DNA from: Planctomycetota bacterium
Lineage (GTDB): Bacteria; Planctomycetota; B15-G4; JADJEK01
Reading direction: 5' to 3'
DNA: 59,288 bases
Assembly: GCA_016213895.1 (NCBI GenBank)
Contig: JACQZJ010000050.1
Span: 1-59,288 of the forward strand
How positions within the stretch are numbered: position 1 is the first letter of the stretch; each line of letters starts with the position of its first letter. Both the position numbers and the translations under genes were made by a program. Shown here piece by piece: positions 37,949 through 43,156 of the stretch. A model generated the notes under the pieces. The model was not told the DNA's origin. It saw only the letters and a program-made list of their open reading frames with translations, and searched no databases.

Positions 37949-38989
37949 TCAGCGCGCCGCGGCGTTCTTCACGGCTGCTATGAGCGCGCGCGCATGGTCC
38001 ACCGGGGTGTCCTTGTGGATGCCGTGCCCGAGATTGAACACGTGGCCGGGGCGTCCCTGCGCCGCGTCGAGGATGGCGCGCGCCCGGCGCGCGATGGCCG
38101 GCGGCGGGCCGAACAGGACGATCGGATCCAGGTTGCCCTGGATCGCCCGGTCGTGGCCGATCCGCCGCCAGGCCTCGCCCAGGTCGACGCGCCAGTCCAC
38201 GGCAATGCAGTCCGCGCCGCTCCGCGCCATGCACTCGAGGAAGCCTGCGGCGCCGCTGGCGAAGAGGATCGACGGCACGCCGCGGTCGCGCAGCGCTGCA
38301 AACACCGTCCGCGCGTGACGCAGGGCGAACTCCTCGTAGTCATCCGGGGCGAGGCAGCCGGCCCAGGAGTCGAACAGCTGAATCGCCTCGGCGCCCGCGT
38401 CGACCTGGCCGAGGACGCAGGCGATGGTCGCCTCGGCGACCTTCTCCAGCAGGCGGTGGAAGGTCATGGGCTCCTGCAGCAGCAGCGACTTGAGGAGAAG
38501 GAAGTCGCGGCTGGAGCGCCCTTCGACCATGTAGGAAGCCGCCGTGAAGGGCGCGCCGGCGAAGCCGAGGACGGCCTTGTCGGGCGCGAGCTCCTGGCGC
38601 AGCGTGCGCACGGCAGCGGCCACGAAGCCCAGGTCGTCTTCCGGGTCCGGGATGCGCAGGGCAGCCACGTCCCGCGCGCAGCGCACCGGGTTGTCGATGC
38701 GCGGCCCGGACTCGGGGAACGCCACCTGCATGCCCATCGCCTGCAGCGGGATCAGGATGTCGGAGAAGAGGATCGCGGCGTCGACGTCGAGGGCCGCCAC
38801 CGCGTCGAGCGCCACCTTGGCCGAGAGGTCCGGGGTGCGGCACAGGGTGAGGAAGTCGGCCTCGCGCCGCACTTCGCGGTACTCCGGCAGGTAGCGGCCA
38901 GCCTGGCGCATGATCCAGATGGGAGTGCGCTCCACGGGCTCGCGCCGGAGGGCGCGGATCAGGAGAGGAACGGCGCTGCGGTCGTCCAT
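37949..38989 (-). CDS. hemE: Uroporphyrinogen decarboxylase
   Basis: 346 residues. HemE removes the four acetate carboxyls of uroporphyrinogen III to give coproporphyrinogen III in haem synthesis. The signature [15 protein letters not shown] is at residues ~25-40, with the second family motif around [16 protein letters not shown] and the C-terminal [12 protein letters not shown] and [12 protein letters not shown]. There is no Shine-Dalgarno; TATACT ends 8 bases before the ATG. A dispersed repeat begins about 20 bases upstream of the start. Confidence 0.97.
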
Positions 38990-38997
38990 CGAGGCAG

Positions 38998-39003
38998 AGT
39001 ATA
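38998..39003 (-). promoter_or_regulatory. -10 box of hemE close to the ATG
   Basis: TATACT on the minus strand in a CGCTATACT context, with 8 bases between it and the ATG at 38989. Same arrangement as accC, consistent with leaderless or near-leaderless transcription. Confidence 0.5.
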
Positions 39004-39008
39004 GCGGC

Positions 39009-39140
39009 GCGGCCGTTTCCCTGGCATCCGGGGCCGGACACGCGACTCCCGGTGCATCGCGTGCGCGAGGAACGAGAAGGGGCTGGTCGAGGCGGAGGCG
39101 ATGCCGGCGGTTCCGTGGCGTGAGCGGTGCGAGGCGTGAG
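39009..39140. repeat. Dispersed intergenic repeat, copy C
   Basis: Aligns block by block with copy A over ~130 bases (GCGGCCGTTTCCCTGG, CTCCCGGTGCATCG, GCGCGAGGAACGAG, GGCGATGCCGGCGGTTC, GCGAGGCGTGAG). A further shared block, GCGACCGCACGGAATG with GTGCA, is at 39206-39227 here and 23234-23255 near copies A and B. Confidence 0.65.
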
Positions 39141-39311
39141 GTGGCCGGTGCGCCCGTCGGGTCCAGCCGCGCCAGATGCAGGCGGGCGCTCGCGGCCAGG
39201 AGACCGCGACCGCACGGAATGGGTGCACCGCGCGGAGCGCGCGGTGCGGAGCCGTTTGGTACCCTTGCCGAGCTGGCGCGGACACGGACTTTCGACACGG
39301 ATGGACAGAAC

Positions 39312-41069
39312 ATGACGTCTTCTCAGGGCTCGGCAGGCGGAGGCGCGGCGGGCGGTCCCGGGCGGGGAGGCGCTCCTCCGGAGGCGGCCAACTTCATCCA
39401 GGCGATCATCCGCGAGCATGAGAAGTCGGGCCGCTTCGGCGGCCGCGTGCACACGCGCTTCCCGCCCGAGCCGAACGGGTACCTGCACATCGGGCACGCC
39501 AAGTCGATCTGCTTGAACTTCGGCGTCGCGCAGGAGTTCGGCGGCCTGTGCAACCTGCGTTTCGACGACACGAATCCGACCAAGGAAGAGGTCGAGTACG
39601 TGGAGTCGATCGAGGAGAGCGTGCGCTGGCTTGGTTTCGACTGGGAGGAGCGCCTCTTCTTCGCCTCCGACTACTTCGACCAGCTCTACGCCTGGGCGGT
39701 GCAGCTCGTGCGCCAGGGCGACGCCTACGTCTGCGACCTGAGCGCGGACGAGATCCGCGAGCATCGCGGCACGCTCACCCGGCCGGGAAGGAACAGCCCG
39801 TACCGCGACCGCCCCGTCGCCGAGAACCTCGACCTGTTCGAGCGCATGCAGGCCGGCGAGTTCGCCGACGGCAGCCGCACGCTGCGCGCCAGGATCGACA
39901 TGGCCTCGCCCAACCTGAACATGCGCGACCCGGTCATGTACCGCATCCTGCACGCCAGCCACCACCGCACCGGCGACCGCTGGTGCATCTACCCGACCTA
40001 CGACTACGCGCACGGCCAGTCGGATTCCATCGAGGGGATCACCCACTCCATCTGCACGCTCGAGTTCGAGAACCACCGCCCCCTCTACGATTGGTATCTC
40101 GAGCGCCTCGGGATCCACCATCCGCAGCAGATCGAGTTCGCCCGGCTCAACCTCTCCCACACCGTGATGAGCAAGCGCAAGCTGCTGCGCCTGGTCGAGG
40201 AGGGGCGCGTCTCCGGCTGGGACGATCCGCGCCTGCCCACACTCGTGGGGCTGCGGCGCCGCGGCTACACGCCGCAGTCGATCCGCGCCTTCTGCGCGCG
40301 CATCGGCGTGGCGAAGTTCAACAGCACCATCGACATGTCCTGGCTCGAGGATGCGGCGCGCGACGACCTGAACGCGCGCGCTCCGCGCGTGCTGGGCGTG
40401 CTGCGTCCCCTACGGGTCGTCCTCACCAACCTGCCGGAGGACCGGGTGGTGGAGCTGGACGCGGTGAACAACCCGGAGGATCCCGCGGCCGGCACGCGCA
40501 AGGTGCCCTTCTCGCGCGTGCTGTGCATCGAGCAGGACGACTTCCGCGAGGATCCCCCGCCGAAGTTCTTCCGCCTCGCTCCGGGCCGCGAGGTGCGCCT
40601 GCGCTACGCCTGCATCATCAAGTGCGAGGAAGTGGTGAAGGACGCGGGCAGCGGCGCGGTCGTGGAGCTGCGCTGCACCTACGACCCGGCGACGCTCGGC
40701 GGCCGCGCGCCGGACGGCCGCAAGGTCAAGGGCACGATCCACTGGGTGTCTTCCGCGCACGCCCTGCCGGCGGAGGCGCGCCTCTACGACCACCTGTTCC
40801 TGAAGCCCGATCCCGAGGACGTCGCCGCGGGAGAGGCCTTCGCCGCCGGCCTCAATCCCGACTCGCTGCAGGTCCTCCGCGGCTGCCTGGTCGAGCCGAG
40901 CCTGGCGAGCGCCGCGCCGGGCGACCACTTCCAGTTCGAGCGGCTGGGCTACTTCTGCGTCGATCCACTGGACAGCGGGCCCGGCCGCACGGTCTTCAAC
41001 CGCACGGTCACGCTGCGCGACTCCTGGGCCAAGGTCGAGAAGAAGCAGGCCGTTGCGCCGCCGCCCTAG
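39312..41069 (+). CDS. glnS: Glutaminyl-tRNA synthetase
   Basis: 585 residues. Class I synthetase that charges tRNA-Gln directly. The HIGH motif is in [20 protein letters not shown] and the KMSKS-type loop in [25 protein letters not shown] and [20 protein letters not shown] are strongly conserved in GlnRS and distinguish it from GluRS. The anticodon-binding beta-barrels fill the C-terminal ~230 residues. The ATG at 39312 gives a ~25-residue Gly-rich start before the family core; no good ribosome site is visible. The gene implies direct glutaminylation rather than only the amidotransferase route. Confidence 0.97.
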
Positions 41070-41110
41070 CAACCCGCGCCTTTCCCGTGCGCCTTGCCGG
41101 CGCTTCCGGC

Positions 41111-41116
41111 TACACT
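41111..41116 (+). promoter_or_regulatory. Possible -10 box for the selenoprotein candidate
   Basis: TACACT in a GGCTACACT context, 32 bases before the ATG at 41149 and 41 bases after the glnS stop. No clear -35. Confidence 0.3.
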
Positions 41117-41148
41117 GTCGTCGCCGCCGCCGCGCGGGAGTCGCGCCG

Positions 41149-42159
41149 ATGAACCCTCTGTTCCTGGTCTCCCTGCTGGCCGCGGCCGGCGTCGCCCAGC
41201 AGCCGGCCGCCGAGACCTCCCTCATGGGCCAGCTCGCGCCCCCCTTCCTCGCCAGGACCTGCATCAACGCGCCGCGCATCATCGACTCGCGCGAACTGCT
41301 CGGCGAGGTCATCGTGCTGCAGTTTTGGGGCATCACCTGACCGCCCTGCGTGTGGCAGTTGCCACAGCTCCAGAAGATGTGGGACGAGGGACGCGACCAG
41401 GGCCTGCACTTCTTCCACGTCGAGGCGCAGCACCACTCCGAGCGCAAGGTCGCGGCCTTCCTGAGGAGGCACGGCGTCACCTTCCCCAACCCCATCCTCG
41501 ACGAGTCCGACTTCCTGCTGCTCGACACCGGAGCGCCGTTCGGCTGGGGCTACGACTGCCGCAAGCTGCCGAAGACGTACGTCATCGGCGTGGAGGGCAG
41601 GGTCATCTGGGAAGGCGGGTTCGGCTACGACGAGGTCCTGAAGAAGGAGCTGGCCAAGGTGCGCTATCCCGGCCTGTTCCAGCAGGAGGTGGCGCGCGGC
41701 CTCGCTCCCGCGGCCAAGGCGTTCGGCGCCGGCAAGCTCGGCAAGGCGCTGGCGGAGGCCGAGAGGACCCAGGCATCCCTGCGGGACGGCGAGGGCGCGG
41801 CCGCCGACGCGCAGTTGATCGTGCGGCGCGCCCAGGAGGTCGAGCGCCACCTGCGCGCCGAGGCCGGCGCGGCGCGGCAGGAGCGGCGCTACGCGGCGGC
41901 GCTCGCGCGCCTCGAGGAGATCAGCGCGCGCTTCGCGGGCCACTCCCTGGGCGAGGCGGCCGCCGCGGAGCTGAAGGAGCTGGCGCGCGACGCGGGCGTG
42001 AAGCGCGAACTGCAGGCCAGCCGCGAGCTGGACGAGCTCTTCGCGCCGGGCGCGGGGGACGCAGCGAAGCTCGCCGAGCAGCTTCTCGCCTTCGCGCGCC
42101 GGAACGACGGGCTGCACGCGGCCGAGGAGGCGCTCTTCCTCGCCGCGGGCCTGGAGTAG
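41149..42159 (+). CDS. Thioredoxin/TlpA-like protein with in-frame UGA at the redox motif (putative selenoprotein, U-P-P-C)
   Basis: Read through one TGA (41338-41340, codon 64) the gene encodes 336 residues. A hydrophobic N terminus (LFLVSLLAAAGVAQQ) looks like a signal peptide. Residues ~30-180 match the TlpA/AhpC-like thioredoxin fold: LGEVIVLQFWGIT, then UGA, then PPCVWQLPQLQKM, with the cis-Pro region KLPKTYVIGVEGRVIWEGG. The UGA replaces exactly the first cysteine of the W-x-x-C-P-P-C redox motif, while Cys67 is kept. Coding quality is unbroken on both sides. A stem-loop 10-26 bases after the UGA fits a bacterial SECIS. The C-terminal ~150 residues are helical and alanine-rich. Alternatives: nonsense mutation or sequencing error. 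It follows glnS by 79 bases. Confidence 0.75.
41338..41366 (+). promoter_or_regulatory. Putative bacterial SECIS: UGA codon plus downstream stem-loop
   Basis: UGA at 41338-41340; TGTGGC (41351-41356) pairs perfectly with GCCACA (41361-41366) around the tetraloop AGTT. Counting the U of UGA as 1, the loop G and U are at 21 and 22, close to the loop GU of the E. coli fdhF SECIS (about 23-24). Below the stem, CTG (41346-41348) can pair with CAG (41371-41373) across a small internal loop. All of it lies within coding sequence, as bacterial SECIS elements do. Confidence 0.6.
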
Positions 42160-42214
42160 CGCAGAGCGGCGCGCGCCTTGACAGCGCCGGCGCCGCGCGG
42201 TGCACTCGCCCTTC

Positions 42215-43156
42215 ATGAAGTGCGCGCTCCTCGGGCCCTCCGAGCACCTCACGGCCGCGGAGCAGGCGGAGCTCGAGCGCCGTCTGGCCGCTCTCGGCTT
42301 CTCCGTGGCCTCCCTCGGCCGCGGCGTTCCCGCGCCGGCCGACGCCGCCGTCGCCGTCGTCAACTCGAAGACGCGCCTGGGAGCGGCCGAGTTCGCGGCC
42401 ATGCCCGCGCTGCGCCTGGTCGTGACGACGACCTCGGGCTACGACCACGTCGACCTGGGCGAGGCGCGGAGGCGGGGCGCCGCCGTGGGCCGCTGTCCGC
42501 TGGCGCGCCGCGAGGCGGTGGTCGACGCGGCGCTCGGCATGGGGATCTCCCTGCTGCGCCGACTGCCGGCGCTGAGCCGCGCGACGGGAAGCGGCCGCTG
42601 GACGCGCGCCGCGGTCAAGGAGTCCCCCACGCCGCTCGTGCGCGGCCTGACCGTCGGCGTGTTCGGCTGCGGCGTCATCGGCCAGAGCGCGATCTCAGCC
42701 TGGAAGGCGCTCGGCGCGCGCGTCCTGGCCGCGGACCCGGCGCGAACGGATCTGGACGCGCCAGAACGGCTGCTCGAGGAGAGCCAGCTGGTGACGCTGC
42801 ACTGCTCCCTCACCGCTTCCTCGCGCGGCCTGATCGACGGCGCCGCCCTGGCGCGCATGCGGCCGGGCGCCATCCTCATCAACACCGCGCGCGGCGAGTG
42901 CGTCGACCTGGACGACCTGCTCGCCGCGCCGCACCTCGGCGGCTTCGGCCTGGACGTGTTCGAACAGGAGCCCTGCCCGCGCCTGGCCGAGCTGGCCGCG
43001 CGCGAGAACGTCCTCTTGACGCCCCATTCCGCCGGCTACCACGACGGCCTCGGCCGCGCCCTGAACGAAGAGGTGCTGGCGACGCTCGCGGCCTGGCTCC
43101 GCGGCGCGCCCCTGCCGCACGAGGTCCTGGCCGGGCAGGAGCGGCAGACCCGTTGA
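42215..43156 (+). CDS. D-isomer-specific 2-hydroxyacid dehydrogenase family protein
   Basis: 313 residues. NAD-binding motif GVFGCGVIGQSA in the middle and the three catalytic residues of the family: Arg in NTARGECVD, Glu in DVFEQEP and His in LTPHSAGY. TTTSGYDHVDLGEARRRG is the usual N-terminal signature. Substrate specificity (glycerate, phosphoglycerate, lactate, phosphonate) cannot be told; the protein lacks the C-terminal regulatory domains of SerA. ATG at 42215 preferred; GTG at 42200 is possible. It begins 55 bases after the selenoprotein candidate on the same strand. Confidence 0.88.
   Translation: MKCALLGPSEHLTAAEQAELERRLAALGFSVASLGRGVPAPADAAVAVVNSKTRLGAAEFAAMPALRLVVTTTSGYDHVDLGEARRRGAAVGRCPLARREAVVDAALGMGISLLRRLPALSRATGSGRWTRAAVKESPTPLVRGLTVGVFGCGVIGQSAISAWKALGARVLAADPARTDLDAPERLLEESQLVTLHCSLTASSRGLIDGAALARMRPGAILINTARGECVDLDDLLAAPHLGGFGLDVFEQEPCPRLAELAARENVLLTPHSAGYHDGLGRALNEEVLATLAAWLRGAPLPHEVLAGQERQTR

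Follow-up and report, generated by a model that had tools for sequence, protein, structure and literature searches.

A conserved UGA at the redox site of a thioredoxin-fold protein from Planctomycetota, almost certainly read as selenocysteine

When a TGA codon stands where a thioredoxin-like protein should carry the first cysteine of its redox site, is the gene dead, misread, or does it encode selenocysteine (Sec)? The question is raised by a locus on the DNA analysed here (the window), a stretch of 59,288 nucleotides from a Planctomycetota bacterium, which makes up contig C211 in a draft assembly of 5.5 Mb and 218 contigs (95.5% complete, 0.74% contamination). On its forward strand, positions 41149-42159 hold a frame of 336 codons that runs from an ATG at 41149 to a TAG at 42157-42159, and whose sole internal stop is a TGA at 41338-41340, codon 64 (FWGIT-U-PPC). 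A preliminary description, made from the sequence alone, had reported this single interruption and the retention of Cys67, and its coordinates were confirmed. The features of the locus are the following.

41149..42159, + strand: gene almost certainly encoding a selenoprotein, ResA/TlpA-like thioredoxin fold plus C-terminal helical domain, 336 aa with U64 (frame with one TGA; PF00578; AlphaFold; orthologues with the same TGA)
41149..41205, + strand: probable N-terminal signal peptide, MNPLFLVSLLAAAGVAQQP (direct reading; low-confidence N-terminus of the model; similar hydrophobic N-termini in relatives)
41218..41613, + strand: thioredoxin-fold (ResA/TlpA/DsbE-like) domain, about residues 24-155 (invariant W60, residue 64, C67 and P141; profiles, model and fold matches)
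41338..41340, + strand: UGA codon 64, predicted to be read as selenocysteine, the U of UPPC (all relatives fetched carry either TGA or a Cys codon here)
41347..41349, + strand: Cys67 (TGC), putative resolving residue of the UPPC site (invariant column)
41351..41366, + strand: SECIS-like stem-loop UGUGGC-AGUU-GCCACA, loop G at +21 (stem in TGA relatives; compensatory change in relative L029)
41680..42156, + strand: C-terminal all-helical domain, about residues 178-336 (model helices 183-334; C-terminal part of NF041382, E 3.5e-8)
38910..41069, + strand: upstream neighbour, a class I Glu/Gln-type tRNA synthetase gene, given as context outside the finding (PF00749, PF03950, PF20974; same gene order at relative locus L057)

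The neighbourhood, with the tRNA synthetase gene upstream, gave no clue to the function of the gene. Read through the TGA, the protein matches PF00578 (AhpC-TSA) with 36.4 bits against a cut-off of 26, and Redoxin likewise above its cut-off. The AlphaFold model (mean pLDDT 90.7) places a thioredoxin domain up to about residue 170, followed by helices from 183 to 334. Among PDB structures, ResA-type oxidoreductases are the best matches by fold, the first being ResA 4nmu (E 8.6e-9), and make up most of the best ones by sequence. A UxxC site after a beta strand, the loop proline and a ResA-like fold are all present. The peroxiredoxin signature TxxC/TxxU is not found at the site, which has Gly instead of Thr at -3 (GIT-U-PPC) and is a UxxC site with a resolving Cys.

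The protein shares with ResA, TlpA and DsbE (CcmG) the thioredoxin fold, the tryptophan before CxxC, the proline of the opposite loop (P141) and likely export, but differs from them by Sec in place of Cys and by the extra C-terminal domain. With the VPGUxxT type 1 proteins (NF041382) it has in common a similar length and the C-terminal domain (residues 178-332 correspond to 188-347 of the profile), and this profile is matched by 30 of 31 members of the gene's own family; however, the site is UPPC, the VPGUxxT motif is absent, and the match, 33.1 bits against a cut-off of 350, is confined to the C-terminal part. The ResA model NF002854 gave 48 bits, under its cut-off of 170. As none of the NCBIfam models exceeded its cut-off with this protein, that collection appears to have no model for the subfamily. 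Sec-containing PF00578 proteins (UxxC, UxxU) are nevertheless known, together with a Redoxin-family selenoprotein (PF08534, UxxC) and a thiol-disulfide isomerase-like one (cd02966, UxxC) (PMC13188914, a 2026 review). The peroxiredoxin-like thiol:disulfide oxidoreductases (PF00578) and Redoxin selenoproteins of that review likewise combine an AhpC-TSA/Redoxin domain with Sec as the first residue of a CxxC site, whereas the protein described here carries, in addition, a helical domain of some 160 residues at its C-terminus, a comparison made on descriptions only. Since the kind was already known, the "new selenoprotein" of the preliminary description holds as a selenoprotein, and as new for the member and its subfamily, but not for the category.

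Relatives were sought in 392 genomes of the same phylum (E <= 1e-20) and were found in 32 of them, about 8% of those sampled, with 86 matches in all. By our count of the table, exactly one in-frame stop is present in 52 of the 86 matches, always TGA, and none in the remaining 34; neither TAA nor TAG occurs as the in-frame stop among the 86. From 30 loci, 31 sequences (21 with TGA and 10 with Cys) were read and aligned at column 64. As the preliminary description had proposed to check, the column holds TGA or a Cys codon in every relative fetched, with Cys in all 10 stop-free loci and never Trp, and W60, C67 and P141 are invariant across the sequences aligned. The same TGA codon and UPPC motif are found in a congener (G179; 83% protein identity, same gene order) and in another genome of the same family (52% identity). 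The longest run identical to the congener spans 88 nt, codons 51-80, and is centred on the TGA site. Synonymous changes near the hairpin relative to the congener (0/11 vs 43/262, p = 0.15) go in the expected direction, without significance.

On the tree of the relatives, at least four Sec/Cys changes are required. Since Sec and Cys forms coexist, frequently in tandem, as in family f24, these genes offer a suitable system for the study of Sec/Cys exchange. Automatic annotation would truncate the Sec proteins at the UGA. In one genome of the phylum (G191), a Cys form of the family (L126, 311-1330, contig C1017) lies directly upstream of one of its two selB genes.

The second layer of evidence is the RNA that follows the UGA. 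The preliminary description had placed there a perfect stem of 6 bp with loop AGTT, whose G-U falls at positions 21-22 when the U of UGA is position 1, and this reading is correct: TGTGGC at 41351-41356, AGTT at 41357-41360 and GCCACA at 41361-41366. As evidence for a SECIS element, the single hairpin is weak. Against shuffles it is ordinary for GC-rich sequence (z = -0.73), a stem of at least 6 pairs arises in 33% of synonymous recodings of the gene under a loose definition, and the Rfam models gave no match with the window or the hairpin. When the other codons of the gene are taken as starting points, such a stem-loop lies at this offset in 3 of 267 positions. What stood of the claim is that the stem recurs and covaries in relatives. 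A fixed rule was applied, which asked for a loop of 3-6 nt, a G at +20 to +23 as the first or second loop base, and no more than one G-U pair. By this rule, 19 of the 21 TGA loci have a stem of 6-8 pairs, and none of the 10 Cys loci has one of at least 5 pairs (Fisher p = 1.5e-6, a value that overstates independence, the rows being related). No clear stem was seen in the distant TGA relatives L052 and L055. Eight different stem-loop sequences occur among the TGA relatives, for instance UGUGGC/GCCACA in the gene itself, UGCGGC/GCCGCA in L029, GAAGGC/GCCUUC in f24, AGCUGC/GCAGCU in L034 and UAAGUGCG/CGCACUUG in L056. Between the gene itself (L001) and L029 (UGCGGC-AGUU-GCCGCA) a U-A pair has become C-G through a compensatory change, W(TGG)/CCA to R(CGG)/CCG, the change in the Pro codon being synonymous. 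Judged on these comparisons, what goes beyond chance is that relatives repeat both the TGA and the stem at one position.

The machinery for decoding is also present. The search for selA, selB, selC and selD suggested in the preliminary description found all four, each in two copies: tRNA-Sec with anticodon UCA on C97 and C214 (73.1 and 71.8 bits; gathering score 47), selB on C97 and C82 (299 and 285 bits), selA on C97 and C64 (512 and 482 bits) and selD on C88 and C64 (432 and 354 bits), the C64 copy carrying an in-frame TGA of its own at the known SelD position. On its gene content, this bacterium can make and insert Sec. Because the TGA and its RNA signal recur, the decoding machinery is present and the other relatives have Cys, we consider it almost certain that the gene is functional and that codon 64 specifies selenocysteine.

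The two sets are phylogenetically distinct. On C97, selC, selA and selB lie in a row (39338-42868; L005, L013, L021), while the native-type copies are on C64, C82 and C214 (L022, L014, L006). Both selA and selB of the genus fall into two separate lineages, one per copy: the copies on C64 and C82 cluster with those of the organism's family and order, and the copies on C97 sit on long branches with the congener as their sole partner (92-93% identity). The C97 SelB is most like that of G235 (54%). The C97 set looks acquired, and the other native. The congener also has both systems, with only one tRNA-Sec found there. Two complete sel operons in one genome have a precedent in Photobacterium profundum 3TCK (PMC5330540). 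Two selB-like matches are also seen in five other genomes of the phylum (G011, G033, G139, G169 and G191).

Which of the two systems would serve the gene? Both are intact, and decoding by the C97 set would leave a selenoprotein all the same. Nevertheless, the gene occurs with an identical AGUU loop in G165, a genome of the same family (88% complete) where the search for selA and selB gave native-type copies only; moreover, the native-type SelD hairpins that could be read, from genomes with one system, mostly have GU loops, while the candidate clients on C97 have AUGG or AGGG loops. Decoding by the second system is therefore unlikely, and, because of G165, the native system (selA on C64, selB on C82, tRNA-Sec on C214) is probably the decoder, its SelB being the one that we infer to act.

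A reading of the UGA as another amino acid such as Cys or Trp, by read-through or reassignment and with no selenium, would also give an intact protein, and Cys at this column would work, as the Cys relatives indicate. However, the genome has the complete Sec machinery, the TGA is accompanied by a local SECIS-like stem that general suppression does not need, and the column is Cys or TGA but never Trp, all of which makes this option highly improbable. Still less can be said for a dead or misread gene in which a Cys codon (TGC or TGT) has turned into TGA. The source is a draft assembly in 218 contigs, and a single base change separates TGA from either Cys codon; yet independent assemblies, two of them with proteins 83% and 52% identical and many others more remote, have the same TGA, the downstream frame is intact, the stop is never TAA or TAG, and the SECIS-like stem comes only with TGA. 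Conservation had already refuted this reading, which keeps a negligible probability. A short peptide ending at the UGA and a second protein restarted at GTG 41350, from which a frame of 269 aa is indeed open, was rejected with the same near-certainty on conservation, which continues unbroken across the TGA with the 88-nt identical run over it; moreover, a product restarted there would start downstream of strand 54-60, with neither W60 nor any of the active site.

With selenocysteine at codon 64 as the preferred reading, comparative evidence indicates that SelB carrying Sec-tRNA-Sec would bind the hairpin just 3' of the UGA, and that the ribosome would insert Sec and continue to the true stop. 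The hydrophobic N-terminus suggests that the product is most likely exported, and fold and active site indicate that it is most likely a ResA/TlpA-type thiol-disulfide oxidoreductase. By analogy with that fold and site, U64 would attack a disulfide, C67 would resolve the intermediate via a selenenylsulfide, and a membrane electron donor would reset the enzyme. The C-terminal helical domain would probably bind the substrate or a partner.

The genome contains further TGA genes. The C97 operon is flanked by two divergent genes in which a TGA, within the motif YGUGFxC, precedes the true stop by about 40 codons. The members in this genome are:

C97, 48148-49599 (L139): YGUGFxC candidate
C97, 37311-38726 (L147): YGUGFxC candidate
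C68, 1818-3056 (L153): YGUGFxC candidate

Members of the congener are L140, L148 and L152, and the TGA is conserved there as well as in G235, G289 and G050. Pfam and NCBIfam gave no match with the one member tested, and the structure model is all-beta, with no convincing PDB match. The stems, starting at +18, covary (GGCCGC/GCGGCC, CGCCA/UGGCG, GUACUC/GAGUAC) and carry the loops AUGGA, AUGGC and CAUGGG(A/C). We propose this group as a candidate unannotated selenoprotein family, predicted to consist of secreted all-beta proteins.

A tentative possibility, which we would put below an even chance, is that the genus has two Sec systems with different SECIS codes: the native one for GU loops (the gene described here and selD), and the acquired C97 operon for stems from +18 to +23 with an A[U/G]GG loop and clients of its own, including the secreted all-beta YGUGFxC family. 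Few sequences stand behind this idea. As UGG is also a Trp codon in YGUGFxC genes, part of the loop may be due to the protein sequence; the G050 hairpin has a CUUGC loop, unlike A[U/G]GG. In any case, the dual machinery is a natural one in which to ask whether two SelB proteins split UGA codons by hairpin type.

A TGA at the same position is also seen in two further thioredoxin-like genes of this genome, L002 (WWUGPC) and L003 (CGUPAC). L002 (C111) has its TGA at 1666-1668 (AWW-U-GPC), resembles the gene described here in its C-terminal extension and showed no clear perfect stem. A fourth match within the genome, L004, showed no redox site in the orientation read. L003 (C97, 18784) encodes a DUF2092-plus-redoxin protein unrelated to YGUGFxC, with its TGA near 1555-1557 (CG-U-PAC) and a stem GGAGAC-AGGGA-GUCUCC at the offset of the YGUGFxC family. 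Finally, a tandem YGUGFxC paralogue in G235 (L150, C34, 24360-25763) has lost its Sec site (YERSDARGFIW) and adjoins an intact TGA copy.
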